Shown here piece by piece: positions 5,142 through 57,786 of a DNA stretch of 64,000 bases (position 1 is its first letter; each line of letters opens with the position of its first letter). The notes beneath the pieces are model-generated. The model made no database searches. It had not been told where the DNA came from and was given only the letters and a program-made list of their open reading frames with translations. This stretch comes from Salinisphaeraceae bacterium (GTDB lineage Bacteria > Pseudomonadota > Gammaproteobacteria > Nevskiales > Salinisphaeraceae): positions 62,001-126,000 of the forward strand of contig NYTH01000028.1 in assembly GCA_002683405.1 (NCBI GenBank). The letters are read 5' to 3'. A program made the position numbers and the translations under genes.

Positions 5142-5185
5142 GCGGCGCCGACCGATGCCGACACGCGTGTTCACAGGTCGACACC

Positions 5186-5983
5186 ATGTTTCGTAGGGTC
5201 ACGCTGCTGGGCGGCGGCGTGCTGTTCCTGTACGCCGCCATGGGCGCGCTGCTGTACTCGCAGCAGCGGGAACTGATCTATTTCCCCACGCCGCCCGCAG
5301 AAATCGACCAGTACGAGCTGCGGGAGATCACGGCCGGTAGCGGCGACACCATTCAGGTCTGGCGCCGCAATACCGGCAAGGCCAGGGCGTTGATCTACCT
5401 GGGCGGCAATGCCGAATCACTACAGGCCACCGGCGCGCTGCTGCGCACCCTGTTTCCCGAATACGCCATCTATCTGCCGCTCTACCCCGGCTATGCCGGC
5501 GCGCCGGGCGAACCGAACGAACAGTCGCTGTACGACGAAGCGCTGGCGCTATACGACGACATCGAGGGCCGGCACAGCGAAATATCGGTCATCGGCCGCA
5601 GCCTGGGCAGCGGTGTGGCCACCTATCTGGCCGCCGAGCGGCCGCTGCACAAGTTGGCGCTGGTCACGCCGTTCGACAGTATGCAATCGCTCGCGCAGGA
5701 GGTCATTCCCATCTATCCCATGGGTCTGATGTTGCGGGACAAGTACGACTCCGCCGCCCGGGCGCGACAGATCGACGCACCCACCCTCATGATCATTTCC
5801 GGGAACGACGATATCGTGACCCGACCGCACTCGGATCGGCTCAGGGTGGCGTTCGACCCGGACCAGGTGGAGCAGGTCGTGGTCGAGGGCAGCACGCACA
5901 ACAACATTCACATGAAGCAGGAGTTCGCCATGGCGCTACTGCTGTTTTTTGACCAGCTTCATCGCAGGCCGCAGCTGCAGTAG
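5186..5983 (+). CDS. Membrane-anchored alpha/beta hydrolase (BEM46/YfhR-like)
   Basis: 265 aa. An N-terminal membrane anchor (VTLLGGGVLFLYAAMGALLY) is followed by the typical FPTP segment of this family (ELIYFPTPPAEIDQYEL) and an alpha/beta-hydrolase core. The nucleophile elbow is GRSLGSGVA, the acid is probably the Asp in SGNDDIVT, and the catalytic His sits in EGSTHNNIH. The substrate is unknown; serine-hydrolase activity at the inner membrane is expected. It follows the DJ-1 gene by 44 bp on the same strand and converges on ubiB, leaving one base between the two stops. Confidence 0.82.
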   Translation: MFRRVTLLGGGVLFLYAAMGALLYSQQRELIYFPTPPAEIDQYELREITAGSGDTIQVWRRNTGKARALIYLGGNAESLQATGALLRTLFPEYAIYLPLYPGYAGAPGEPNEQSLYDEALALYDDIEGRHSEISVIGRSLGSGVATYLAAERPLHKLALVTPFDSMQSLAQEVIPIYPMGLMLRDKYDSAARARQIDAPTLMIISGNDDIVTRPHSDRLRVAFDPDQVEQVVVEGSTHNNIHMKQEFAMALLLFFDQLHRRPQLQ

Positions 5984-41491: not shown

Positions 41492-41591
41492 GCCGCTGCA
41501 GGCATGTGCGATCAGCTACAGCAGGGGCACGCACGAGCCTTAATGGCCGCAAAGATCGGCTGACGACGACCCCTCTGTTAAACGACGGAGC

Positions 41592-41619
41592 AGTGCATCC
41601 CCGCAGGCGCGGGTAACGC
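41592..41619 (-). repeat. Relic CRISPR repeat 1
   Basis: Plus-strand GTGCATCCCCGCAGGCGCG matches the array-1 repeat except for one base, then diverges at the outer end (GGGTAACGCT). It stands alone, about 870 bp from the first array repeat and in the same orientation, so it is probably a decayed trailer end of the array. Confidence 0.8.
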
Positions 41620-42457: not shown

Positions 42458-45400
42458 GGGTTCATCCCCGCAGGCGTGGGGAACACGGAGTCACCATGTC
42501 AATCATCGCCTACGCAGGCGGTTCATCCCCGCAGGCGCGGGGAACACGGCTGCGTTTTGCCGCATGGCCTCTTTCACCGCGGTTCATCCCCGCAGGCGCG
42601 GGGAACACGGCCCCTTCCCCCTGGCGCGGGTATCCCCCGCCGGTTCATCCCCGCAGGCGAGGGGAACACCTTGACTGCCGGTGCGCTCGAATTCTTCTTC
42701 CGCGGTTCATCCCCGCAGGCGCGGGGAACACATTTATATTTTTTATTTCTTTATTGTCAATTATGGTTCATCCCCGCAGGCGCGGGGAACACGCCGGTGT
42801 ATTCAGGCGGCGAAACCACGTCGACGGTTCATCCCCGCAGGCGCGGGGAACACGGGCGCACGCCGGCGATGGTCCGCTTCATTGCCGGTTCATCCCCGCA
42901 GGCGCGGGGAACACTACGATGAGCGGGAGCGGTGGTGATGGAACATCGGTTCATCCCCGCAGGCGCGGGGAACACCATTTTTCCGGGCATCGAATTCTCG
43001 TCCTGCCCGGTTCATCCCCGCAGGCGCGGGGAACACGACCAGAATGTTTTTTCGCTGATCCGCCGGTACGGTTCATCCCCGCAGGCGCGGGGAACACCAC
43101 ATGGTGCAGCCCCGGGCCTGGAAGAAGCACGGTTCATCCCCGCAGGCGCGGGGAACACTCTGTCGATGCCTGTATAAGCCTGTAGCCGGGCGGTTCATCC
43201 CCGCAGGCGCGGGGAACACGCCCTCAAAAATCTTGACCGAATCCGCCTCGACGGTTCATCCCCGCAGGCGCGGGGAACACGACGTGGCAGTTTTCGTCGG
43301 CCCACTCTCCGCCGGTTCATCCCCGCAGGCGCGGGGAACACTCATGCGTCAGTACCCGCGAGCGGCAGAGGCCCGGTTCATCCCCGCAGGCGCGGGGAAC
43401 ACTCTGGGCACCACGGTCATTCTGGTGGTGGTGTTGGTTCATCCCCGCAGGCGCGGGGAACACGTGACCCCCTTCACGCCTTCGCGCTCGATCAGCGGTT
43501 CATCCCCGCAGGCGCGGGGAACACGCATGCGAAAGTCTCCTGTCTGGTAGAAGACCCGGTTCATCCCCGCAGGCGCGGGGAACACTTCTTCCGCCCCGCT
43601 GCGCTTTCTGGCGCGTTCGCGCCAGGCCATGAGTTCGGTTCATCCCCGCAGGCGCGGGGAACACGCCTGAACAAGACCGCCACGGGCGTATCCATGCGGT
43701 TCATCCCCGCAGGCGCGGGGAACACGCACATGGCGGTAAAAACCTCGTGGAACCTCCCGGTTCATCCCCGCAGGCGCGGGGAACACCTATGGCGCACTCA
43801 AGAGCACGTTTACAACGTGGCGGTTCATCCCCGCAGGCGCGGGGAACACGCGGAACGCCGCATTTTCCGCGCTGTAAGTGACGGTTCATCCCCGCAGGCG
43901 CGGGGAACACCAAGATCGCGGCCGCGTTTGCCTCGCTTGTGCCGGTTCATCCCCGCAGGCGCGGGGAACACGATCTAGGCCGCTCGTTTCCCATCGGCAA
44001 CACCGGTTCATCCCCGCAGGCGCGGGGAACACCGATCGGTCTCGGCCTTGGCGTCGGCGGCAGCCGGTTCATCCCCGCAGGCGCGGGGAACACCGAGCAG
44101 GGCACGGCGGATTACGGCTGCGTTGCGGTTCATCCCCGCAGGCGCGGGGAACACCGCTGGATGCCTCGCCAAAGGTCAGCGGGTTTTCGGTTCATCCCCG
44201 CAGGCGCGGGGAACACTGGAGGATGCAGACGGGGTGGCCATAGAGATGAGGTTCATCCCCGCAGGCGCGGGGAACACGAAAGCCCGACTATTCGGCGGCG
44301 CTGCGATCTACGGTTCATCCCCGCAGGCGCGGGGAACACGGGTGGGTTGTCGGTCATGCCCTGCCCTCCGGCGGTTCATCCCCGCAGGCGCGGGGAACAC
44401 ATCTACCTAGCGTAGAAACGGCATCCGGCATCCGGTTCATCCCCGCAGGCGCGGGGAACACAAATCGACCGCCTCACCGCCCGCGTTGCCGAGCGGTTCA
44501 TCCCCGCAGGCGCGGGGAACACGGGGAGATTCTGGAGTGCGCAGGCAGAAGATGCGGTTCATCCCCGCAGGCGCGGGGAACACATAGGCGCGAAGGCTAA
44601 TCAGCAAGACCTGCACGGTTCATCCCCGCAGGCGCGGGGAACACTTCTTGTCGAGATCACGGCGAATAAATGCAAGCGGTTCATCCCCGCAGGCGCGGGG
44701 AACACGTCGGCCGGCGGCGCCCATCGGTTGATAATCGCGGTTCATCCCCGCAGGCGCGGGGAACACCGCTGGATGAGCGTCTTGCTGCCCTCAAAAATCG
44801 GTTCATCCCCGCAGGCGCGGGGAACACCTGCGCCAGGCCACGGAAGACGCGGGCGATACCGGTTCATCCCCGCAGGCGCGGGGAACACCCTCGGCCTCAC
44901 GATCTACATCATCGGCACGGCGGTTCATCCCCGCAGGCGCGGGGAACACCCCAGGACTCCCGATCAGCCGCCCCCTTGTTTCGGTTCATCCCCGCAGGCG
45001 CGGGGAACACGCAAGCACGTAGCCGATCAGGGGTCGCCAGCCGCGGTTCATCCCCGCAGGCGCGGGGAACACTTGGCGTCAATACGCCATGTTGGGAATT
45101 ATCGCGGTTCATCCCCGCAGGCGCGGGGAACACTCGCAATTTGACGAAGCCGTTTCTGTTCATTTGCGGTTCATCCCCGCAGGCGCGGGGAACACCGACA
45201 GGACCGTCAGACTGGTATCAGGGATACGCGGTTCATCCCCGCAGGCGCGGGGAACACGCCTATCTGCTCGCGGTGCGTGAATCGGCTCTCGGTTCATCCC
45301 CGCAGGCGCGGGGAACACGCGAGTTTTCGACCAAAATTCGGAGCATCTCGCGGTTCATCCCCGCAGGCGCGGGGAACACTTTAGGCTGCATTGCGAATCA

Positions 45401-46112
45401 CCTCGCCGTGCTGGTTCATCCCCGCAGGCGCGGGGAACACGGGACGCATCTCTTGCCTGACGGCCTGTATATCGGTTCATCCCCGCAGGCGCGGGGAACA
45501 CGCACGGAAGATCGCATCGAACACCGCATAGACCGGTTCATCCCCGCAGGCGCGGGGAACACCCTGCCGGCGTACACCGTTGATGAGACCGGGACGGTTC
45601 ATCCCCGCAGGCGCGGGGAACACCCAATGCCGAGCTGCTCGGCAATCGTTGCGAGCGGTTCATCCCCGCAGGCGCGGGGAACACTCCCACACCAGCAGCG
45701 CCCGCTCGCCGTCGATCGGTTCATCCCCGCAGGCGCGGGGAACACTCGCTGGGCACCGCTGACTTGGCCAATGTTGAGCGGTTCATCCCCGCAGGCGCGG
45801 GGAACACACCAGCTCGAATCGCACGCCGCCCCGCCAGCCCGGTTCATCCCCGCAGGCGCGGGGAACACGAATTCCAGCCGGCTCATGATGCGAATTCAGC
45901 CGGTTCATCCCCGCAGGCGCGGGGAACACCGCCCCGGCGGCCAGCAGCACGGTCTGGCGGTCGGTTCATCCCCGCAGGCGCGGGGAACACGCGTGCAGGG
46001 GCCGGGCGGGGCCGACTTTGAGCGGTTCATCCCCGCAGGCGCGGGGAACACCCCACCGGCCCGACCTATGAAAAGTTGATGTTCGGTTCATCCCCGCAGG
46101 CGCGGGGAACAC
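42458..46112 (-). CRISPR. Type I-E CRISPR array 1, 60 repeats
   Basis: I count 60 repeats of 29 bp and 59 spacers, most 32 nt (several 33, one 34, one 50). Read on the minus strand, the repeat starts GTGTTCCCCGC, has the loop GCCT, and ends GCGGGGATGAACCG; the 8-nt handle is ATGAACCG, as in type I-E. The leader is on the right, next to cas2, so the left end is oldest. The leftmost repeat (42458) and the fourth (42641) carry substitutions. Repeat identity is otherwise near perfect, suggesting active use. Confidence 0.99.
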
Positions 46113-46246
46113 TCTTCCTTTAACTTGCTGAAATTTATATCAAATTCGAGTCGACTTAAATCCACCAAGCATTTTGGTTAAAAAATAACCAACCAAAGAC
46201 GGAAGAAATATCTTCGATTTTTCGGGTTGTTAAAGAGCGTAATTGA
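46113..46246 (-). promoter_or_regulatory. Leader of CRISPR array 1
   Basis: AT-rich 134-bp stretch between cas2 and the newest repeat. It contains TTGGTGGATTTA on the minus strand (46157-46168), 44 bp before the first repeat; the same 12-mer occurs in leader 2. An inverted repeat TTGGTTA-AAAAA-TAACCAA lies at 46174-46192. It should hold the array promoter and the Cas1-Cas2 integration signals. Confidence 0.88.
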
Positions 46247-47453
<1,207 letters not shown>

Positions 47454-47458
47454 GGCGC

Positions 47459-47890
47459 TTACTGCCAGTCCGAGATATGCCGAATATGTTGGCCGCCGGC
47501 GACTTTACGCAGATAGGCCTCGTCCGCGGTAACCAGCACACTACGCTGAACAATGGCCAGGGCATGATAGGCCGCGTCGTAAAACGCCACCCGGTATTCG
47601 CCGGCCAAGCGGCAGGCCTGCTCCAGCCAGCTTGTTGAAGGCTCGGGCTCGTGCATGCCCAGACCCTGCAGCGCCTCCATCAGCTCGAAAGCATGCTCCG
47701 GATATTTGCGCGCCAGCGTGTTCCCCGCCTCGTAGCGCCACAAGGGTGGCACCACGAAAGAGATTTCGCCGTCCAGAAATTGGTCACGCAACCGCATGGC
47801 CTGTTCGGCGTGCGGCTCATCTTCGGCGGGCAGTGCCCATTTCAGAATGACAGACGCATCCGGCACGACGAGCGCACTAGTGACTGTCAC
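47459..47890 (-). CDS. PIN-domain ribonuclease toxin (VapC-like)
   Basis: 143 aa from the GTG at 47890. The PIN acidic residues are visible: VPDASVILKWAL (Asp), YEAGNTLA (Glu), FYDAAYHALA (Asp) and LVTADEAYLRKV (Asp). VapC toxins cut tRNA or rRNA. It overlaps the antitoxin end by 14 bp and lies inside the cas operon between cas6e and cas1. A longer ATG-like start upstream would read through the antitoxin gene and was rejected. Confidence 0.88.
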   Translation of the reverse strand: MTVTSALVVPDASVILKWALPAEDEPHAEQAMRLRDQFLDGEISFVVPPLWRYEAGNTLARKYPEHAFELMEALQGLGMHEPEPSTSWLEQACRLAGEYRVAFYDAAYHALAIVQRSVLVTADEAYLRKVAGGQHIRHISDWQ

Positions 47891-48101
47891 GATCTTCGCG
47901 AATCCACTGTTCCGCGCTGCCCGCCAGCGGCTGCATCTTGCCGCGCAAGGCATCCAGCCTGGTAGCCGCATCACGGCGTCGGCGTATTGTCAGCTCCGAC
48001 ACCAGCGCCTCGCTGACCACTTCGCTGCGACGCCCCTTGGGAATCTCCTGCAGCATGGACCAGGCTTTGTCACTTAAGACCAGATTAGTGCGGTGAGACA
48101 T
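47877..48101 (-). CDS. VapB-like antitoxin (ribbon-helix-helix type)
   Basis: 74 aa. MSHRTNLVLSDKAWSMLQEIPKGRRSEVVSEALVSEL has the ribbon-helix-helix pattern, followed by a charged C-terminal tail that would wrap the toxin (RRRRDAATRLDALRGKM). It sits directly upstream of the PIN toxin. A palindrome just before its start is a likely operator for autorepression. Confidence 0.83.
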   Translation of the reverse strand: MSHRTNLVLSDKAWSMLQEIPKGRRSEVVSEALVSELTIRRRRDAATRLDALRGKMQPLAGSAEQWIREDRDSH

Positions 48102-48105
48102 TTTT

Positions 48106-48134
48106 ACACCATTTGTGTGTATATTTGTTACACA
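48106..48134. promoter_or_regulatory. Candidate operator of the vapBC-like pair
   Basis: TGTGTA-7 bp-TACACA (48116-48134) is a perfect inverted repeat in an AT-rich stretch, and overlaps a second one ACAC-CATTT-GTGT (48106-48118). It lies 5-33 bp upstream of the antitoxin start, in the 40-bp gap after cas6e. This fits binding by the RHH antitoxin. Confidence 0.6.
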
Positions 48135-48141
48135 TCATAAT

Positions 48142-48825
48142 TCACGCCGGGCGGACCAACAACAAGCCACAGCCGAAGCTCTTGGCGGGGCCTATGCCGT
48201 GATACAGGCCAGCCTGGAAGGCCTCCACGTCGGTGATTTCCAGCAGACCCTTCACGTCCAGGCTGCTGAATCGAATGGGCGATTTCTTTTTCCCCGGATG
48301 AAAGCGATGCTGGCGATAGCCCTCGGCCAGCAGGGCATCGTCTACAAGACGAAAGCCATACTGGTCAGCGCGGCTGGCCACCCACTTCAGCCCCGCAGCC
48401 TGTTGCAGCGCCGGCATGTCTATGCCGTTTTCGCCATCGCGCAGATCGCGCTTCATGTCCATAACCAGATCATGGCGATGCTGTCGGCCGTTCGCGTCCC
48501 GGCTTTTCTTTACCGGATTCAGCCGCAAATCGAACTGCAGGCGCATGCCAGCTTTCAGCCTGGGCTCGAACGGCTTGGTCGCCAGGCTCCAGTAGCCGTC
48601 GCGATCCTCGGGCGCTTCGTCCGAAAGCAGATAGAACATCGGCGTGCGGCTGTCTTCTAGTTGCCGATACAGAAATGGCCGCGGCTTGTCAGCGTCTTCC
48701 CCTACCCCGCTACTGAACAGGCGCCAGACCAACTGGTGGGCGGCATAGGCGTGTCCGGAAGTTATTTGCAGTAATTGACCCGCCGAACAGCGGGCCGGAT
48801 CAATTCGGGCGCGACTCATGTACAT
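48142..48825 (-). CDS. cas6e: CRISPR RNA endoribonuclease Cas6e
   Basis: 227 aa. It cuts array RNA at the base of the repeat stem and stays bound to the crRNA. SGHAYAAHQLVWRLF carries the catalytic His region, and GIGPAKSFGCGLLLVRPA is the C-terminal Gly-rich loop. MYMSRARIDP is the normal N-terminus. Its start overlaps the cas5e stop by one base. Confidence 0.96.
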   Translation of the reverse strand: MYMSRARIDPARCSAGQLLQITSGHAYAAHQLVWRLFSSGVGEDADKPRPFLYRQLEDSRTPMFYLLSDEAPEDRDGYWSLATKPFEPRLKAGMRLQFDLRLNPVKKSRDANGRQHRHDLVMDMKRDLRDGENGIDMPALQQAAGLKWVASRADQYGFRLVDDALLAEGYRQHRFHPGKKKSPIRFSSLDVKGLLEITDVEAFQAGLYHGIGPAKSFGCGLLLVRPA

Positions 48826-49580
48826 CAGGTTTGCTCCTCGGGCACCCAGGCGAAGTGCTCCTCGCGTGAGGAAAACTGCCAGCGGCTGCGGCTGTAAGCC
48901 CGGTCGCGCCGGGTAACCGTTTGCTGCGCGGGTAAGGGGGCAGCCGGGTCGCCCTCCCAGTACAGGGCCGGCGCGCTACCCGCCTGTCGTGTAATCGGGG
49001 CAAAAAGTTTTGCTTCATCTTCGGGCCGCTGTGCCTGCGCGGCCTGGAACGCCGCCAGGCAATGCTCGGCAGCAACAACCCGCGGCAATAACGGCAACGC
49101 CAGAGGACAGGCCTTTCGGCCCAGATAGGGCACGAACCCCGGCTGCCTGAGTGCTTTCATCAGGCTATCCAGACTGAAAGCGGTCTCCTCGCCCTGTAAC
49201 CAGACGGCAATATCGAACAAGGCATCGCAGCGATAGTCGCGCTGGGAGAGCACCGTCCCGATGCTCGTGGCGGCCAGTTCATCGGCGCGGGTGTAATAGC
49301 GTTCGTTTCGACGTTCGTGCGGCGTTTGTATGGTGTGGTAGTCGCGCAGCAACTGGCCGGTCGACCAGGCATAGATTGCCAGGCCCAGCGCGGCATCCAG
49401 TTCCAGATGCGCCTGCTCCTCGTCGCGGCGCAAACCCAGCGCCCCGGCGAGCAGGCCCATGATCGCGGAACGGGTGGGATGATCGGCACTGGGCCGCGTG
49501 CCACCCACGGCCACGTCCCCCCAGGACACCATCGGCCCGTACAAACGGAATACCAGGTACCTCGTCATTTGACCGGTCAT
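48825..49580 (-). CDS. cas5e: Cascade subunit Cas5e
   Basis: 251 aa RAMP protein that caps the 5-prime handle of the crRNA. TRYLVFRLYGPMVSWGDVAVGGTRPSADHPTRSAIMGLLAGALGL is the Cas5e signature. An ATG five codons further in (MTRYLV) is an equally good start. The C-terminus extends with RAYSRSRWQFSSREEHFAWV. It follows cas7e after 6 bp. Confidence 0.95.
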   Translation of the reverse strand: MTGQMTRYLVFRLYGPMVSWGDVAVGGTRPSADHPTRSAIMGLLAGALGLRRDEEQAHLELDAALGLAIYAWSTGQLLRDYHTIQTPHERRNERYYTRADELAATSIGTVLSQRDYRCDALFDIAVWLQGEETAFSLDSLMKALRQPGFVPYLGRKACPLALPLLPRVVAAEHCLAAFQAAQAQRPEDEAKLFAPITRQAGSAPALYWEGDPAAPLPAQQTVTRRDRAYSRSRWQFSSREEHFAWVPEEQT

Positions 49581-49586
49581 GGCCGG

Positions 49587-50663
49587 TTACTCCTGCACGA
49601 ATTCGATGATCTCGCGCAGCGAGCCCTGCCCCGCCGGCACGTTCATTACGCGGTGGGCATCCGCGCAGCCGTCATAGGCGCTGTCCATGTTCGCGCGCAT
49701 GGTTTCCAGATTGCCGATGGCGTGTTCAGCCACAGACTCGCCGTACACGGGTTTCAGGAATGAAACCGACAGCGACCGCGGCTGCTGATCGCCTGTTTCC
49801 GCCAGTACATAAATAGCGTGAGCGGTGGACCCGAAACTGTTCCGCTTACCTTTGGGGGCCACCTTGGCGACCGCCTCGGTCAGTCCCGCCAGTGCCTTTC
49901 TGGCCAACGCTTCGTCGCCGCCGAGATTCTCTACCAGCAGGCTGCGGTCCACGCAGATATACAAGTAAAAGAGTCCCGCGCCGAATTCGGTTTCGCCGAT
50001 GTGCGCAGCACCGCGATCCACTTCGCCAGTGTTCAGGTCATCCACTGCGGTGAAATAGTCGTTCTCCACCGCCACCTTGTGCACGGTAATGGCATGTGCG
50101 ACTTGCGCCGCCGCCTCGATGTTGAATTTGGGCACGCTGGCCAGCATCCGGCCGAATAGCGCAATGTCAGCCGCGCTTTGCTGCTTGCGCAACAACTCCA
50201 GTTCCCCCTCTTCGGGGGCGCCGCCGCGTTGCGCCAGGGCGGCGACCAGTTCATCGATCAAGCGCAGTTCTTCAGGGCTGAAATGCGCGAGCTGCTCAAT
50301 TTCCAGTTCCGGCATGTCGCTCACGGCTTCCTCGTCGTCTGCCTTTGCCTTGCCGGATTTCAGCTTGCCGAACTGGCCTGCAATGTCCTTCGCCCACTTC
50401 TTCGCGTCCGATTCCTTCACACCAGCGTTGGTCAGGTCCTGAAAAATCTTGACGCCCATTTGCTTGGTCCGCGTACCGAGGTGACCGTCCAGCCCCTGCT
50501 GAAACACGTCGGACGTACGCCAGGCCCGCTTGAGGCTTTGCGAGGAAATACGCAAGCGGTTGGCACCGCCCATGACGGCCGTCTTGGGCCGACCCAGATC
50601 ATCACGATTGACGTTGGACGGCGGGTAAGAGGTGAGCAAATGCAGTTGCAGAAAACGCTTCAT
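49587..50663 (-). CDS. cas7e: Cascade backbone subunit Cas7e
   Basis: 358 aa from the ATG at 50663, which has a GGAG upstream and starts MKRFLQLHLLTSYPPSNVNRDDLGRPKTAVMGG, the Cas7e N-terminus. RLRISSQSLKRAWRTS and the later GAAHIGETEFGAGLFYLYICVD are conserved. Six copies line the crRNA. A variable Glu-rich insert lies at about 95-165 (KADDEEAVSDMPELEIEQL). A longer in-frame extension overlaps cse2 and was rejected. Confidence 0.96.
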   Translation of the reverse strand: MKRFLQLHLLTSYPPSNVNRDDLGRPKTAVMGGANRLRISSQSLKRAWRTSDVFQQGLDGHLGTRTKQMGVKIFQDLTNAGVKESDAKKWAKDIAGQFGKLKSGKAKADDEEAVSDMPELEIEQLAHFSPEELRLIDELVAALAQRGGAPEEGELELLRKQQSAADIALFGRMLASVPKFNIEAAAQVAHAITVHKVAVENDYFTAVDDLNTGEVDRGAAHIGETEFGAGLFYLYICVDRSLLVENLGGDEALARKALAGLTEAVAKVAPKGKRNSFGSTAHAIYVLAETGDQQPRSLSVSFLKPVYGESVAEHAIGNLETMRANMDSAYDGCADAHRVMNVPAGQGSLREIIEFVQE

Positions 50664-50692
50664 CTTCAAGTCTCCGAGTGTGTTCGTGAAAT

Positions 50693-51268
50693 TCAGCCAG
50701 CCTGCTGTCGCGATGGCAGCTCGGCGTAGTAGTCGTAGGCCCACTGGCGGCGCTGGCGGTCACCGCGAAAACGATCGCCCCACAGCCAGATGTCGTTGGC
50801 CAGAACCGGCACATCGACGCTGCCACTCAGCAACGGCAAAGTGCGCCGCAGCATGGCGTAGAAGCTTTCCAGGTCCGCGGCCTGCAACATGCGACGGAAC
50901 CGCAATTCGCTGATTTGCGGCGCGTCGCTTTCCTTCTTGCGCTGCGCCATGAGCACGGCGGTTGTCGAGCCGTAAGCCCGCTCCAGGGGCACATGGGTTT
51001 TAACCTGGGCCAACGCGCCGGCCACTGCGGCCGCCGCCAGTCGGCCCGTTTCGCTGTTCAGCGTCTTGCTGGCCGAACCATCCCCGGCCAGCGCCGGTCG
51101 CAGACCGTGCAGAAAACTCTGGTACACGGGCGTAATGACAATGCCGGTCAAGTCCGGTGCACGCCGGAGTTGTGCCCGGCCCTGCCGGTCCTCGGTTGTC
51201 AGCCGGCGCCAGAACTCAAGGACGTATTCGCCCGCTGGCTCGTCGCTGGAAAAAATATGCTTGCTCAT
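50693..51268 (-). CDS. cse2: Cascade small subunit Cse2 (Cas11e)
   Basis: 191 aa. GEYVLEFWRRLTTEDRQGRAQLRRAPDLTGI and the C-terminal DVPVLANDIWLWGDRFRGDRQRRQWAYDYY are typical of CasB/Cse2. It stabilises the R-loop on the non-target strand. Two copies per Cascade. It sits between cas8e and cas7e, 14 bp after the former. Confidence 0.94.
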   Translation of the reverse strand: MSKHIFSSDEPAGEYVLEFWRRLTTEDRQGRAQLRRAPDLTGIVITPVYQSFLHGLRPALAGDGSASKTLNSETGRLAAAAVAGALAQVKTHVPLERAYGSTTAVLMAQRKKESDAPQISELRFRRMLQAADLESFYAMLRRTLPLLSGSVDVPVLANDIWLWGDRFRGDRQRRQWAYDYYAELPSRQQAG

Positions 51269-51282
51269 GGTGCTCCTGCCGT

Positions 51283-52890
51283 TCAGGCGGCCTTGCGAGA
51301 GGTACCCAGGCCCAGCAGCTTGCGCAGCTTCGGCCCATTCAGGTTCTTTTGCAGGTCGTTATGCGCGGTGGCAATTCGGCGCGGGTCTTCGGCCTCGAAA
51401 TAGCCCGCGCTTGCCCATTGATCAAACAGCTTGATCGCGCGGCTTTTCAGGGCGACATGCCAGGAGACGGTAATATCGCTCAGCGCATGGTCTTCTGCCG
51501 CTTCGCTGTCGTGTTCGCCATCCAGCACAGCCACCAGGCGCCGCATGTGGGCATAGAAGTCGCCCTCCATGGTTTGCCAGAAGCTGTCGGTGATAAAGCT
51601 CACATCGCCCTTGGCATCCCCGGGCCGCTTGAACCAGGACTGCTTCAAAGCGGCTCGCAGTACGCGGCCAACCTGGTCGGCCGACTCAATCAAAGCCTGT
51701 ATCCGTTCGGCGAAGCGCTCCGGATTTTGCTGTACGTAATGCAGCGGCATGAGCGCTTCGTACCAGCAGCGGGCTTGCATGTTGTCCATATCGAAACCGA
51801 AGGCCCATATGTGCGGCACTCCAGCTACCGATGAGAACTGATCCCGCCGCTGCTGCCATTGGCTAACCACCGCGGCGGGCCGCGACAGATTCTCGCGATA
51901 CCCGGTGAATCCGAGCCAGTAACGAAACGGCAGCCCACCCGGCTGCGGGTGAAACGGCATGGGACCTTTATCGCTCTCGTGGTAGGGGCTCAGGGGATGC
52001 AGCCAGGCGCCTTCATAATTCGCCCCGTAGTTTTTGGTCGTATAGCCCGTCAACAGGGATTCGCATTCCCGCCCGGTGACATCGCAGACGCCCGCCTGAG
52101 TGTTGTTCCAGTCAAGGCGAATCCTGCGGGGCATGGCCCAGTACATGACCAGCGGATGCGCGTCTTCCGGGGTGGTGGGGTCACCGGTTTTGTCGCTTAC
52201 ACGGCAGGGCGCCAGCCAGGGGAATATCTGCTCGGACTTGTTAAGTGAGGCCTGCCCGGACAAGCCGTTGAAGCTCTTGGCCGTCAGCACGTTCAACCAG
52301 AGGTTGTGCCAGAGCGTGTCCTTTTCGCTGCCCGGCGCATTCATCATGAGCGTGGTGAGCGGGCCGCCACCGCGCAGCGACGTGCGGTGGCCGACGCCGC
52401 CGGACGGCGCATTGACCTGCAGGGCCAACAAGGCCATAGCAGCCACTTCCGGGCAGATGCCATTAACCTGGCCACGTTTGACGAAAACGTCCTTGTTCTC
52501 CTTGAGCGTGTTTCCGCCCGGCGCTTCTATAAGTAGACCAGCAATAGGCTTGTCGCTTTTGCCCTCCAGCTCCAGATCTTCCATGAAGCTGGGCCGATCA
52601 GGACCAAAATTGAAGGCGGCTGCGAACTCCGAAAACGCAGCCTTTAGCGCGGCCGGTTCGGGCGGATCGGAAAACGTCGTCTTCCAGTTGCTCTCGCGCT
52701 CGGGGGCAAAGGCAGTCTGCAGCAAGGCGATGAGGAACTGCTGCAAAGCCCCCGTAAAATCCGCCCGCGGCGCGTCCACGGCGATGATGGGGTCGTCCTT
52801 CAGACCTTCAGTGATCTGCCACGGGGCAATCCACTTGTGCTGGCCGCTGCGGGTGCGGACGGGTATCCAGTTATTAGTCAATAAATTCAT
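51283..52890 (-). CDS. cas8e: Cascade large subunit Cas8e (Cse1)
   Basis: 535 aa. MNLLTNNWIPVRTRSGQHKWIAPWQITEGL is the CasA/Cse1 start, and ALQQFLIALLQTAF and LVMYWAMPRRIRLDW are conserved. It reads the PAM and recruits Cas3. First gene of the Cascade transcript; the preceding 299 bp hold the mini-CRISPR, its target site and a structured segment, so its expression is probably controlled there. Confidence 0.96.
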   Translation of the reverse strand: MNLLTNNWIPVRTRSGQHKWIAPWQITEGLKDDPIIAVDAPRADFTGALQQFLIALLQTAFAPERESNWKTTFSDPPEPAALKAAFSEFAAAFNFGPDRPSFMEDLELEGKSDKPIAGLLIEAPGGNTLKENKDVFVKRGQVNGICPEVAAMALLALQVNAPSGGVGHRTSLRGGGPLTTLMMNAPGSEKDTLWHNLWLNVLTAKSFNGLSGQASLNKSEQIFPWLAPCRVSDKTGDPTTPEDAHPLVMYWAMPRRIRLDWNNTQAGVCDVTGRECESLLTGYTTKNYGANYEGAWLHPLSPYHESDKGPMPFHPQPGGLPFRYWLGFTGYRENLSRPAAVVSQWQQRRDQFSSVAGVPHIWAFGFDMDNMQARCWYEALMPLHYVQQNPERFAERIQALIESADQVGRVLRAALKQSWFKRPGDAKGDVSFITDSFWQTMEGDFYAHMRRLVAVLDGEHDSEAAEDHALSDITVSWHVALKSRAIKLFDQWASAGYFEAEDPRRIATAHNDLQKNLNGPKLRKLLGLGTSRKAA

Positions 52891-52939
52891 AGCGATAAAC
52901 CAGTTTCTGGGCCTCCGTCGCAGCGTTTGGACCGCTACG

Positions 52940-52998
52940 AGCGAGGTCGAATTTGCCCGTTACTGGAGGTTTGGACGCTCCGGGCAGTGGACCTCGCT
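52940..52998 (-). promoter_or_regulatory. Structured segment in the cas8e leader
   Basis: A perfect 9-bp inverted repeat AGCGAGGTC (52940-52948) / GACCTCGCT (52990-52998) encloses a second, 6-bp one TGCCCG (52954-52959) / CGGGCA (52981-52986). The nested arms would fold a strong stem-loop in the untranslated leader of cas8e, or in a plus-strand RNA. A GTTTGGAC(C)GCT direct repeat (52924 and 52969) borders and enters it. Role unknown. Confidence 0.6.
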
Positions 52999-53041
52999 GG
53001 AGACCTTGCTCGAGACTTTACGCTTAGCAACGAATTAAGTA

Positions 53042-53076
53042 AAGGCAGATATGTAATGAGACGAGGAAACTCAATA
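53042..53076 (+). promoter_or_regulatory. Cascade target-like site: AAG PAM plus partial protospacer
   Basis: AAG at 53042-53044 is followed by GCAGATATGTAATGAG (53045-53060). The mini-CRISPR spacer begins GCAGTGATGTACTGAG. Thirteen of 16 bases match; mismatches are at 5, 6 and 12, and 6 and 12 are flipped out in type I-E. The rest of the protospacer does not match, so binding without cleavage is expected. The site overlaps a minus-strand TTGAGT (53069-53074) with TATCTG (53046-53051) 17 bp further on, a weak cas8e promoter candidate. Confidence 0.7.
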
Positions 53077-53139
53077 TTTTCGCTACAATGTTCTTTGTTC
53101 CCCGATGCCGTTGGGGATGAACCCGCAGTGATGTACTGA
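53056..53139 (+). other. Candidate mini-ORF beneath the target site
   Basis: AAAGG (53041-53045) precedes ATG-TAA at 53051 and then ATG-AGA-CGA-GGA at 53056, a start with two rare-type Arg codons. The frame continues for 28 codons into the mini-CRISPR (MRRGNSIFSLQ...). RNA toxins of CreT type act through a ribosome-binding site, a start and rare codons. This resemblance is suggestive only; no plus-strand promoter is convincing. Confidence 0.25.
53084..53089 (+). promoter_or_regulatory. -10-like box of the mini-CRISPR
   Basis: TACAAT differs by one base from TATAAT. A start about seven bases downstream would fall at 53096, the first base of the first degenerate repeat. No good -35 is visible at 17 bp, which may mean a weak or activated promoter. 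Confidence 0.55.
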
Positions 53140-53185
53140 GGAACTCTGCGATAATCGCGTTCCCCATTTTGTGGGGATTTTTCCG
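53096..53185 (+). ncRNA. Degenerate mini-CRISPR (crRNA-like guide gene)
   Basis: Repeat-like 1 (53096-53124) has TGTTCCCCG, a changed core, and GGGGATGAACCC. A 32-nt spacer (53125-53156) follows. Repeat-like 2 (53157-53185) has GCGTTCCCC, a new core ATTTTGT, and GGGGATTTTTCCG. The 29-32-29 geometry equals that of the arrays. The 8-nt handle would be ATGAACCC. Repeat 2 folds as TCCCCA / TGGGGA with a TTTTG loop plus a T run, a short terminator. It is transcribed opposite to cas3 and cas8e and lies between them. I infer a CreA/CreR-like guide RNA. Confidence 0.8.
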
Positions 53186-53189
53186 CTAC

Positions 53190-55958
53190 CTAACGTCGTT
53201 TGACCTCCAGACCGGTCCCGGGCGTATATCTGAGTTCCATCGGATCGCCGGCCTGCGAAACTCCGGCTCCAAGCCAATCCGCTTTGCCGCAGAGCATTAG
53301 CACCGGCTGCACCCAGCGGAATAAGTTCGGATGCGCTGCCTGCAACGCGGCAAGAGCCTCGCGCGACGGCGCGTCATTTGGCTCAACTGCCGCTTCCACC
53401 AACGCCGACCGCACCGAAACCTGACTCATCTGCCAGGGAAAATCGCTGTCATCGTCGTATAGCGGACGCAGTTGCTCGCCGTCCCAGGCCAGCAGGCATA
53501 GCGTGGTGGTGGGGTCGCCCAGGCGCGTGGGCGCCGAGCTTTCCTCGTACCAGCGCTGCTGATTCGGGATATAGCCATCCGCGAACGTGAGCATGTTGTA
53601 GCGGGCCACGCTGCTATCCGCGCTGTTCTGGCCGGCCGCCGTCAGAGCGATCTGCTGCAAGGCATCGGGGGCTTCAAGCGGCTCGTCGCCGTGTACGCCC
53701 TCTATCAGTTCGCGGGCGGCTTCGGGCATTCGGATTTCGCCCCGGTCCTGCATCAGTCGGGCCGTGCGCCACAGCACGGCGTGATCGGGATATACCGCGC
53801 CGGTTCCGGGCAAGAGCCGCCTGATCCATTTGCCGTCGGCGTCGTCATCAGGTGGCGGCGACAGGATTTGCAGGCAGGGGGGCGGCCGCTGGTCCGGGCC
53901 ATCGCTCAGGCGATTACCGCTTACATCTCGCGCGTGCCGATGCAGCCGGCCGGCGCGCTGGATGAGCAGATCGACCGGGGCGAGGTCGCTGAACATCACG
54001 TCGAAATCCAGGTCCAGTGACTGTTCGACAACTTGCGTGGCGATCAACACCCGGCCGCGGCGCTGTTCGGCGGTCGATACCTTGCCAAACCGTTCCAGCA
54101 CGCGGCGCTCGATATCCAGCCGGTCGCCCATCATGAAGCGGGCGTGAAAGAGTTCGACATGCTCGCCCAGTGTTTCGACCAGTTCCTCATAAGCGGCGGC
54201 GGCATCGCCCACCGTGTTGCGAATCCAGCAGACGCAATGCCCGGCCTCGGCGGCCAGCAGAATGCGGCCGATGACATCTTCCTCGCTGCTGACCAGTTGT
54301 GTCTGCACGGATCGCGACGCGCGCTCGGACGCGGTGATCGGCGACGTGACCAGGCCGCCCTCACAGCAATAGCTGAGCAATGGATAACGATTGTCCTGCA
54401 CGGGCGGCAGGTCCAGATGATTACGGCCTTCGGCAAAAGCCTCCAGAAGCTGGGCACGCATACGCCTGGGCAGTGTGGCCGACAGCAGCACGGCGCTACC
54501 GCCCGCCGCGGCGTGAAAGCGCAGCAAGGCGCACAGCAGGCGATGCACGTACGCATCGTTGGCATGCACCTCATCCACGATCAGCACCTTGCGGAACAGC
54601 CCCAGCAGCCGCATGGACTGATGGCGTGAGTGCAGAATGGCCATGAGCGACTGGTCGATGGTCCCCACCCCGACGCTGGCCAGCAACGCCTTCTTGCTGT
54701 TGTCCGCCAGCCAGGCGGCACAGCGTGCGCTGGCGGTGGTTTCGCCGGTGTCAGGCAATGGTGCCTCTGCTGGCACGTTGCCCCTCGCCTCCTCCGGGAC
54801 TAGTACGGATTCCGTGAAGTTGTTCATCAGGCGGCGCTGGCTATGCGCGAGAATAAGAGACGCTTTTTCGATTTCGGCAAATAGCAATGGATGAATTTGC
54901 TGTATACGCTCGAACATGGCGTTGGCCGTGGCCATGGTAGGTAGCGCGAAAAACAGGCCGTCGGCGGCGCCGTAATGCATCATTCGGTGAGCCAGCACGG
55001 CGGCGGCTTCGGTTTTGCCGCTGCCGGTCAGGTCTTCAAGAATGAATAGCTGGGGCTGGTCACGCACAGCGAAACTTTCGGCGGTTTGCTGCAGGTCCGT
55101 GGGTGTGGCGCCGGGCGGCAGAAAACTGTCAAGGCCCCGGAGCGGACCAGACGCGACGGGGAGAAACCCGGCCTGGTTCACGGCGATTTCGGCCTGCTTC
55201 AAGGCTTCCACCCAATAGGTTTCGAGCGAATCCACCGGCCCCGAGCGGTAGGCGAAATAAGATTGATTGGAGCCCAACCAGTCGCAAAGTACGGCCACAC
55301 CCGCCAACCACCAGGACACGGCTGGCATGGCGTCCTCGAATTGCTCCGGGTCCAGCGTGACGCGATCCACGTCCCGAACGAGAAAATCCAGTGCCCGCAT
55401 GAATTCCACGGCGGCGGCGATATCAGCGCGCGTCGCCTCGTCGTCCAGCGCATTCGGCAGACTGCCCGGCGGCCGGCCGTGATGGCCCGCCACGCACCCC
55501 ATCCAGAGTGTGAAAGCGGGTAGAAGGTCTTCGAGGTCTTCGCCGAGCAGGAACGGGTCGCCAGTATTGAATTCATCTCGCAATCGCTTGCACCACAGCG
55601 CGTAACCAAAGCTGTCATGGCGCGTGCGATACGTCTTGCTGGCCTCGATGCATTGCAAACGCTGAAACAGCTCGGGCACCTGCGCCTGAAAGCCCTGCCC
55701 GAACTTGCCCACATCATGCAGCGCCAAGAAATACACCATCCACGCGGCGAATACCTCCTGCGGAAGACCCATGGGCGCGGCGAGTTCCTGCGCCAGCCGG
55801 GGGTGCCGGCGCAATAGCACCTGCCCGACGGCGGCCACGTCCAGGCTATGAAAGGCAAGCTGATGGAAGCCGTCGTTGTCGGCATGGTCGTCCGGCCGAG
55901 CTTTACCCCAGTGGGCGAAATAGGCCGGCCGGTCGGAAATGTGGTGCGAATCGCTCAT
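53190..55958 (-). CDS. cas3: CRISPR-associated nuclease/helicase Cas3
   Basis: 922 aa. An N-terminal HD nuclease domain (AFHSLDVAAVG, LHDVGKFGQGF, MGCVAGHHGRPPG) is fused to a superfamily 2 helicase: Walker A LTGSGKTEAA, DEVH box LIVDEVHAND, motif III LLSATLPRR, and motif VI QRAGRLHRH. It is recruited by Cascade and degrades target DNA. Its stop is 4 bp from the mini-CRISPR end. It starts 47 bp after the WYL-domain gene and has the same direction. Confidence 0.97.
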   Translation of the reverse strand: MSDSHHISDRPAYFAHWGKARPDDHADNDGFHQLAFHSLDVAAVGQVLLRRHPRLAQELAAPMGLPQEVFAAWMVYFLALHDVGKFGQGFQAQVPELFQRLQCIEASKTYRTRHDSFGYALWCKRLRDEFNTGDPFLLGEDLEDLLPAFTLWMGCVAGHHGRPPGSLPNALDDEATRADIAAAVEFMRALDFLVRDVDRVTLDPEQFEDAMPAVSWWLAGVAVLCDWLGSNQSYFAYRSGPVDSLETYWVEALKQAEIAVNQAGFLPVASGPLRGLDSFLPPGATPTDLQQTAESFAVRDQPQLFILEDLTGSGKTEAAAVLAHRMMHYGAADGLFFALPTMATANAMFERIQQIHPLLFAEIEKASLILAHSQRRLMNNFTESVLVPEEARGNVPAEAPLPDTGETTASARCAAWLADNSKKALLASVGVGTIDQSLMAILHSRHQSMRLLGLFRKVLIVDEVHANDAYVHRLLCALLRFHAAAGGSAVLLSATLPRRMRAQLLEAFAEGRNHLDLPPVQDNRYPLLSYCCEGGLVTSPITASERASRSVQTQLVSSEEDVIGRILLAAEAGHCVCWIRNTVGDAAAAYEELVETLGEHVELFHARFMMGDRLDIERRVLERFGKVSTAEQRRGRVLIATQVVEQSLDLDFDVMFSDLAPVDLLIQRAGRLHRHARDVSGNRLSDGPDQRPPPCLQILSPPPDDDADGKWIRRLLPGTGAVYPDHAVLWRTARLMQDRGEIRMPEAARELIEGVHGDEPLEAPDALQQIALTAAGQNSADSSVARYNMLTFADGYIPNQQRWYEESSAPTRLGDPTTTLCLLAWDGEQLRPLYDDDSDFPWQMSQVSVRSALVEAAVEPNDAPSREALAALQAAHPNLFRWVQPVLMLCGKADWLGAGVSQAGDPMELRYTPGTGLEVKRR

Positions 55959-56005: not shown

Positions 56006-56971
56006 TTATTCGTATTGACGCGCGGCCTCGGCGTGCAGATCGGCCACTCTGTTTCTGAGATCGGCAGGCGCGACAATTTCTACAGCCGGGCCATGCTTGA
56101 GAACATCCATCATGAGTTCTTCGGCGTGGCGGAAGGGAATATGCAGCTCCAATCGTCCGTCGGGTAGCCGGGCTGATGTCTGATCCGGATGCCAGCTTTC
56201 ATCCGCCACCCACTCGGCTCGCTCCTTCGAAAACCGCAGCACCGCTCGCTGATCCGCCGTACCGGCAAAGATGCCGAACGACCCGCCTAGCTCTTCATTC
56301 AGTAGTTGCTCGCTAACATCGCGTGCATGTTCCGCTTGCGATTCAATAGCTGAAATTCGGTCCACCGAGAACGTGCGCAAAGCGCTGGCCTGGTGACACC
56401 AGGCGTCCAGATACCAGTTGTCACGGTAGTGTGTGAGTCGCTGCGGGCAGACCAGGCGCCGGCTGTGCTGATTCGATCCGCGCGATACATAATCGAAACC
56501 AAGTTGCTTTCGCGACAGCACCGCTTGCGTACACAAGCGCAAAGCGAGCGGTTCGGTAAAACGACCCAGCGTTCGCAGAATTCTGATGCGCCGCAGATTG
56601 TCCAGGCTGGTCTGATCGCCATTGCCCAACAGACTGCGAATCCGCGTGCGTAACGGCTCCAGCGCATTGCCAATCAGGCCCGGATCGAGTTCGGTCAGTA
56701 ATTGCTCGGCCGCCAGCAGCGCGTAAATTTCTTCTGCGGAAAACCAGAGGCCTGGCAATTCGAAGGCCCCAAGCGAATCATCGTAGCGGTAACCGGGTGG
56801 ATCGGAACTCGCGACGACGGGGGCGCCCAACTCGTCTCGCAACTCGGCCAGTACTCGATAAAAAGTAGCGTCCGAGCAGGCTAGTTGTTCCAGAAGGCGA
56901 GCCTTCGGCACTGGTACCCGGGCGTGCATGAGCATCTCGTGCAATTTGAGTAGCCGCTCCCGGCGTCGCAT
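56006..56971 (-). CDS. WYL-domain transcriptional regulator
   Basis: 321 aa. An N-terminal HTH (RERLLKLHEMLMHARVPVPKARLLEQLACSDATFYRVLAELRDEL) is followed by a WYL domain (about 145-230, SRRLVCPQRLTHYRDNWYLDAWCHQASALRTFSVDRI) and a C-terminal WCX-like domain. WYL regulators are often linked to CRISPR-Cas, where they bind nucleic-acid ligands and control cas genes. It sits between cas3 and leader 2, and a shared promoter region (56972-57145) lies upstream. Confidence 0.9.
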   Translation of the reverse strand: MRRRERLLKLHEMLMHARVPVPKARLLEQLACSDATFYRVLAELRDELGAPVVASSDPPGYRYDDSLGAFELPGLWFSAEEIYALLAAEQLLTELDPGLIGNALEPLRTRIRSLLGNGDQTSLDNLRRIRILRTLGRFTEPLALRLCTQAVLSRKQLGFDYVSRGSNQHSRRLVCPQRLTHYRDNWYLDAWCHQASALRTFSVDRISAIESQAEHARDVSEQLLNEELGGSFGIFAGTADQRAVLRFSKERAEWVADESWHPDQTSARLPDGRLELHIPFRHAEELMMDVLKHGPAVEIVAPADLRNRVADLHAEAARQYE

Positions 56972-56999: not shown

Positions 57000-57145
57000 C
57001 CGTCACCGAAACAGGCCGACGCTTAACTCATTACTTCGGCTCTTTTACAACTAAATTGATGCCCACCTTGAGCGCATAAATTCGGGCGAATTTGTTGGTG
57101 GATTTAGCAAACCGATAATTTATTTTTCTTTTCAAAAAATTAAGA
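57000..57145 (+). promoter_or_regulatory. Leader of CRISPR array 2
   Basis: AT-rich stretch before the first repeat of array 2. TTGGTGGATTTA at 57095-57106 is identical to the 12-mer in leader 1 and lies 39 bp before the repeat. Both leaders end in AAGA before GTG. It also separates the divergent WYL gene. Confidence 0.85.
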
Positions 57146-57786
57146 GTGTTCCCCGCAGGCGCGGGGATGAACCGCATGAGCTACTGCGACAAGTGGACAT
57201 ACTGCGGTGTTCCCCGCAGGCGCGGGGATGAACCGGTCTTGTATTTCCAAACTTTTCGGAGTTCAACGTGTTCCCCGCAGGCGCGGGGATGAACCGCCCG
57301 AGAAATTAGTAAGAGTGAACCGCCGCAGGTGTTCCCCGCAGGCGCGGGGATGAACCGGACGCCATCGCCGCATAAGGCGCCGGTACCACGTGTTCCCCGC
57401 AGGCGCGGGGATGAACCGGACGTGGAGATAATGCCGAGCTTGTCCCCCACTGTGTTCCCCGCAGGCGCGGGGATGAACCGCTGCTGCGCTCCCGATGGCG
57501 AGAGGACCCCAGGTGTTCCCCGCAGGCGCGGGGATGAACCGCGCTACGCATCGATCGACCGCAATCTGCGCCCGTGTTCCCCGCAGGCGCGGGGATGAAC
57601 CGCGCACTGAGGAGCCCGAAGACGACGAGGACGACGTGTTCCCCGCAGGCGCGGGGATGAACCGTTAGCCAGCAGGGTTTCGACGCAAGCAAATGCGTGT
57701 TCCCCGCAGGCGCGGGGATGAACCGGAGGCGCGCAACGCATCCGGCGATGCGACCATGTGTTCACCGCAGGCGCGAGGACCAATCG
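57146..57786 (+). CRISPR. Type I-E CRISPR array 2, 11 repeats
   Basis: Eleven 29-bp repeats and ten spacers of 32-33 nt. The repeat starts GTGTTCCCCGC, has the loop AGGC, and ends GCGGGGATGAACCG. Loop and its closing bases are reverse-complemented relative to array 1. The last repeat (57758-57786) is degenerate (GTGTTCACC, GAGGACCAATCG), which marks the trailer end. The array reads rightward from its leader, away from the cas genes. Confidence 0.98.

Follow-up and report, generated by a model that had tools for sequence, protein, structure and literature searches.

Two CRISPR arrays with reverse-complementary tetraloops at one type I-E locus of a Salinisphaeraceae bacterium

A stretch of 64,000 nucleotides from a Salinisphaeraceae bacterium, here called the window, carries two CRISPR arrays at a type I-E CRISPR-Cas locus, and their repeats are the same except for the tetraloop. 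Array 1 has the loop GCCT, and array 2 has its reverse complement, AGGC. We consider it probable, with reasonable though far from full confidence, that this is a normal two-array type I-E locus in which the loops drifted independently and came to mirror each other by coincidence, in which one Cas6e serves both arrays and in which array 2 is nearly frozen.

Results and discussion

Structure of the locus

The features of the locus are collected in Table 1. A complete type I-E cas operon sits between array 1 and array 2. The signature of type I-E is found in full, as the subtype models score above their cut-offs for cse1, cse2, cas7e, cas5e, cas6e, cas1e and cas2e. The helicase and HD models of Cas3 are also above cut-off in the window; the full-length Cas3 model PRK09694 is under its cut-off (531 vs 569). 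Both arrays have the 29-nt palindromic repeats and the spacers of about 32 nt that are used as a criterion for type I-E.

Table 1. Features of the type I-E locus, in positions of the window.
Feature	Position	Strand	Details
CRISPR array 1	42458..46112	-	60 repeats, loop GCCT; 59 spacers, 50 of them 32 nt
Isolated degenerate repeat	41591..41619	-	outside array 1, past its old end; loop GCCT
50-nt spacer	43586..43635		in array 1
IHF-like box TTTCAGCAAGTTA	46121..46133	-	in the leader of array 1; gap to the first repeat 8 nt, as is usual
Leader motif TTGGTGGATTTA	46157..46168	-	array 1, GGT start 54 nt upstream of the repeat
Complete cas operon	46247..55958	-	type I-E
cas2e	46247..46561	-	TIGR01873
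cas1e	46542..47453	-	TIGR03638
PIN-domain gene and 74-aa frame	47459..48101	-	between cas6e and cas1
cas6e (cse3/casE)	48142..48825	-	TIGR01907; sole Cas6 found in the genome (Cas6e and PF10040 searched)
cas5e	48825..49580	-	TIGR01868
cas7e	49587..50744	-	TIGR01869
cse2	50693..51268	-	TIGR02548
cse1	51283..52890	-	TIGR02547
cas3	53190..55958	-	TIGR01587 and TIGR01596 above cut-off
HTH-WYL-WCX regulator	56006..56971	-	directly upstream of cas3
Leader motif TTGGTGGATTTA	57095..57106	+	array 2, GGT start 49 nt upstream of the repeat, not 54
IHF-like box TTTCAAAAAATTA	57130..57142	+	array 2 leader, 3 nt before the first repeat, not 8
CRISPR array 2	57146..57786	+	10 perfect repeats and 1 degenerate, loop AGGC; 10 spacers, 8 of them 32 nt

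Two neighbouring regions of the operon are recorded here as side observations. The PIN-domain gene between cas6e and cas1 appears to be VapC-like, and together with the 74-aa frame upstream of it, which has no Pfam match, it may form a toxin-antitoxin pair inside the cas operon. The gene that separates cas3 from array 2 codes for an HTH-WYL-WCX protein, which may regulate the CRISPR locus.

The repeat of array 1, GTGTTCCCCGCGCCTGCGGGGATGAACCG, is exact in 54 of the 60 copies, and its loop is GCCT in all 60. The repeat of array 2, GTGTTCCCCGCAGGCGCGGGGATGAACCG, is present in ten exact copies and a degenerate eleventh at 57758, all with AGGC. The first-pass annotation had described the arrays as differing in the loop and sharing the remainder, and this is borne out, as all 25 non-loop positions, stem and flanks, are the same in the two consensus repeats. 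Its further claim, that the plus strand of both arrays reads the same core CCCCGCAGGCGCGGGG even though the arrays are read in opposite directions, also stands: in both arrays the leader motif lies upstream of the first repeat, and degenerate repeats lie at the opposite end from the leader (41591 and 41809 in array 1, 57758 in array 2). The loops do not mix within either array, and degenerate copies keep the loop of their own array. Both repeats are predicted to form the same hairpin, at -14.4 kcal/mol each. In the 3.72-Mb, 58-contig assembly there is no further array with this stem at up to two mismatches; the matches at this threshold, 10 forward and 60 reverse, all fall within the window.

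No spacer is common to the two arrays, and the longest word that they share is 11 nt. Array 1 contains one spacer of 50 nt, where 32 to 34 nt is usual. One old spacer of array 1 (42670-42702) has a match, with 3 mismatches in 33 positions, in the gene for the large terminase subunit of Salmonella phage Fels-1. This match was also considered as a source of a PAM from which to orient the array. However, its flank is CCG, the same as in the repeat, and nothing follows from it on the orientation. A search of array 2 against phages gives two records, each aligned in two to three pieces that cover 55-64% of the query at about 69-70% identity; the plasmid search gives three, at 72-74%. These records are presumed to be other arrays, matched via their repeats.

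Loop variation among type I-E loci

Arrays were read around cas6e in the order, class and phylum samples, where 70 of the 75 other matching genomes were used, and in addition around cas7e in the best 80 named genome contigs and in five chosen stretches of relatives. The survey comprises 156 loci including the window; 119 of these have counted arrays of this repeat type, with 137 arrays and 5258 repeats in total.

The tetraloop varies freely, and with the window left out 112 of 127 loop-locus combinations fit the pattern RNNY. This pattern maps onto itself under reverse complementation, so that two loops that differ are reverse complements with a probability of 0.018. Fourteen loci have several arrays, from which 11 differing same-locus loop pairs are obtained. 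The pair of the window is the only reverse-complement pair among the 11 and also the only one in which all four loop positions differ, the other ten differing at one to three. That the 25 non-loop positions are identical is seen in the window and likewise in 4 of the 10 other differing pairs. Within arrays, 103 of the 5258 repeats carry a minority loop, which in 77 cases is one substitution away from the majority loop and in none is the majority loop flipped.

Some relatives have more than one loop in a single array. The family relative L046 has an array (5160-5860) with CTGC in seven repeats, ATGC in five and ACAC in one, showing that loops can change inside one array. A single array of L052 contains CTAC 24 times, CCAC 16 times and CCTC once, and in L107 loops are also mixed within one array. 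The first-pass annotation had stated that orientation would be meaningless if both loop forms coexisted at random within one array in relatives. The mixing itself is seen in these three relatives, but none of them pairs a loop with its own reverse complement. As loops vary freely and several relatives mix them, the orientation of the loop probably carries no information.

A separate observation comes from the same order, where in L162 (4737-9736) an array with a different repeat, in about 41 copies, runs straight into an I-E array with the loop GGAC.

The leader of array 2

In total 133 leaders of 90 nt were compared, of which 101 have the leader motif and 32 have no motif. What we call the leader motif, a putative upstream anchoring motif, and the IHF-like box are named from resemblance and position only. 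The distances from motif to repeat, motif to box and box to repeat are 54/33/8 in 78 of the 101 leaders with a motif, array 1 included. In array 2 they are 49/33/3, i.e., the distance from motif to box is normal, and among the 81 leaders with this distance of 33 it is the only one in which the gap from box to repeat is not 7 or 8. The leader ends in TTAAAGGAAGA in array 1 and in TTAAGA in array 2, which fits a simple loss of 5 nt. The small second array of L190 also has the GGT of its leader at 49, and there no box is present at the usual spacing.

In E. coli adaptation, the IHF site is described as spanning -9 to -35 and Cas1-Cas2 as touching positions -1 to -4, with further elements upstream at -50 to -55; bending of the DNA brings these sites together (PMC10011333). 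A change of 5 bp corresponds to half a helical turn, so the first repeat of array 2 should be out of phase. Judging from this leader spacing, array 2 may be impaired in spacer uptake. Its small size adds little weight to this, since short arrays are also found with canonical leaders: 16 of the 78 arrays of that kind have at most 11 repeats. The median number of repeats is 33.5 with canonical leaders (78 arrays), 19 with other geometries (23) and 29.5 without a motif (32). The leader of array 2 is a natural test case for how strict the acquisition complex is about spacing.

Origin of the two arrays

In the family of the window, repeats with this stem are present in 8 of 17 genomes. AGGC is the commonest loop there and occurs in four of the eight (the genome of the window, G010, G011 and G013), and GCCT was read among family repeats in the genome of the window only. 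AGGC need therefore not derive from array 1. Two AGGC repeats stand at the end of the cas contig of G013, where their side and strand correspond to those of array 1, and in G012 two contigs differ in their loop, with ATGC in one and GGAC in the other. Neither of the two 25-nt repeat cores was found in the other 368 genomes of the 369-genome class sample, so that no sister with the same loop pair was found in this sample. An array of L045 and one of L178 have as their most frequent repeat an exact copy of the full array 2 repeat (60 of 61 and 8 of 20 repeats, respectively); the full repeat of array 1 is the repeat of no other array read in the survey.

The first-pass annotation had proposed either separate origins or an inversion event. 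In the former case only one of the arrays arrived together with the cas genes, the second being an I-E array, older or foreign, that the family already possessed. We regard this as a real possibility that deserves somewhat less than even credence; it also overlaps with the main explanation, as it is one route by which loops can drift. The distribution of AGGC and GCCT in the family fits separate origins, and the lack of common spacers points the same way, as does the average likeness of the leaders of array 1 and array 2 when compared as a whole (identity 0.36, ungapped over 70 nt). However, the flanks of the two repeats are identical, whereas the AGGC arrays of the family (G010, G011, G013) mostly start with CCG and not GTG. 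Further, a 58-nt leader segment aligned on the motif is more alike in the two arrays than in most pairs. Its identity is 0.586, a value reached or exceeded by 7.6% of the 3240 leader pairs, and among 81 leaders none matches either segment better than that of the partner array does. Same-locus pairs elsewhere whose loops differ have identities of 0.47 to 0.78 in this segment. Judged by this resemblance, array 1 and array 2 may be of common descent, and this keeps the hypothesis of a flip alive. Very different leaders are reported for two putatively active arrays of Escherichia, in a study that also accounts for runs of variant repeats by copying from the neighbouring one (PMC2886076).

Is loop inversion a process?

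Inversion of a whole array can be rejected, because it would have flipped the outer ends of the repeats too, and these are not flipped. A more restricted event would be a flip of the 16-bp palindromic core in one array, from AGGC to GCCT or the reverse, through a template switch or a cruciform event between the stem arms. We consider such a flip unlikely, and equally so the accompanying idea that it took place in the leader-proximal repeat and then spread by repeat duplication. A flip would account at once for exact reverse complements that differ at all four loop positions with 25 of 25 other positions identical, a relation for which the likelihood by coincidence is about 0.018, and the mutual best or tied-best match of the leaders in the compared segment also agrees with it.

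The survey argues in the other direction. Flips are absent among the 103 minority repeats and among the ten other differing same-locus pairs. The first-pass annotation had proposed a search for intermediates; neither array 1 nor array 2 contains any, and even the degenerate old repeats carry their own loop. On the side of a flip, reverse-complement loops between loci are modestly more frequent than in column shuffles (0.0169 vs 0.0099, with a fraction of 0.002 of the shuffles at or above the observed value). However, this excess is non-specific: among 23 transformations with non-zero expectation the reverse complement ranks fourth, and since the three above it are arbitrary, correlations between loop positions suffice to explain it.

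Close relatives are not enriched for flips either. Cas7e was usable in 111 of the 119 loci, and at 70% or more Cas7e identity one of 199 differing pairs is a flip, against 92 of 6533 below; this is a weak test, as only about three were expected among the 199. The control adds to this weakness: single-base changes make up 47 of the 199 close pairs against 1201 of the 6533, a marginal enrichment (p = 0.064) that a rank test does not show (p = 0.97). A limited literature search gave no paper on loop inversion in CRISPR repeats by title. Loop inversion as a general process is thus not supported. Slightly more doubtful still than the flip as such is the full scenario, in which the core flipped as a unit and was fixed throughout one array by duplication, while the other array, locked by the loss of 5 bp from its leader, kept the original orientation. 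If it is true, the flip would show a mutational route along which CRISPR repeats can change and still keep their stem.

Processing by Cas6e

According to the first-pass annotation, either Cas6e accepts both hairpins or one array depends on a different nuclease. A search of the organism's own genome finds one match to Cas6e and none to the PF10040 Cas6 model, a count that covers these two Cas6 models; it also finds one cas1 (two matches in one frame). The hairpin and its energy are the same for both loops, and in another structured repeat cluster the conservation of loop residues is relaxed, namely in cluster 3 of Kunin et al. 2007, where they are less conserved (PMC1896005). The repeats of both arrays are therefore likely to be served by the one Cas6e, and the first of the two options is the one that we retain. 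A separate nuclease for one array is unsupported by the Cas6 count.

It is very improbable that the two loops mark two functional channels, by different nucleases or by selective crRNA loading: such channels would agree with loops that never mix between array 1 and array 2, but they are at odds with the single Cas6 and single cas1 found by these searches, with several loci that have two or three different loops at one cas operon, and with loops that differ even among systems with about 90% identical Cas7e.

Comparison with known systems

The type I-E system of E. coli K-12 has the same cas gene set as the window, 29-nt repeats and spacers of about 32 nt, and both of its arrays carry one loop. 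Like the window it has two arrays. Differences lie in the array upstream of cas3, which in the window is directed away from the operon, in the loops, which differ between the arrays of the window, and in the leader of array 2, which lacks 5 nt beside the repeat. E. coli has an IHF site close to the repeat and a further element upstream at about -50 to -55 (PMC10011333), which the IHF-like box and the leader motif of the window resemble. The window also resembles repeat cluster 2 (Ecoli subtype) of Kunin et al. 2007, a structured cluster with stem-loop repeats to which the Ecoli-subtype cas genes are assigned (PMC1896005).

Eight other loci (L046, L050, L090, L106, L107, L110, L130 and L175) have, like the window, one cas operon and at least two arrays with differing loops. 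In these the loops differ at one to three positions, and unlike in the window there is no reverse-complement pair. The locus of the window is ordinary in kind, i.e., a two-array type I-E locus with freely drifting tetraloops.

A model for the two loops

By what is known of type I-E systems, it is the stem and flanks of the repeat that Cas6e and Cas1-Cas2 recognize. The tetraloop would thus be only weakly constrained in sequence, and each array could have fixed a loop of its own (array 1 GCCT, array 2 AGGC). As a new repeat copies its neighbour, a single loop spreads through the whole array. The reverse-complement relation between the two loops would then have arisen by coincidence, at about 2% per pair, with the odds raised by the prevalence of the self-mapping RNNY pattern in I-E loops. 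One Cas6e would process both transcripts. The 5-nt loss seen in the leader of array 2 would rotate the integration site out of phase by half a turn of the DNA and impair uptake, and array 2 would have been left small and nearly frozen, with a loop that is found in several members of the family.

We suggest that the mirror relation between GCCT and AGGC is most probably a coincidence. The locus also suggests that, in type I-E systems, the identity of the loop should not be taken as a sign of the orientation of an array or of the choice of nuclease.
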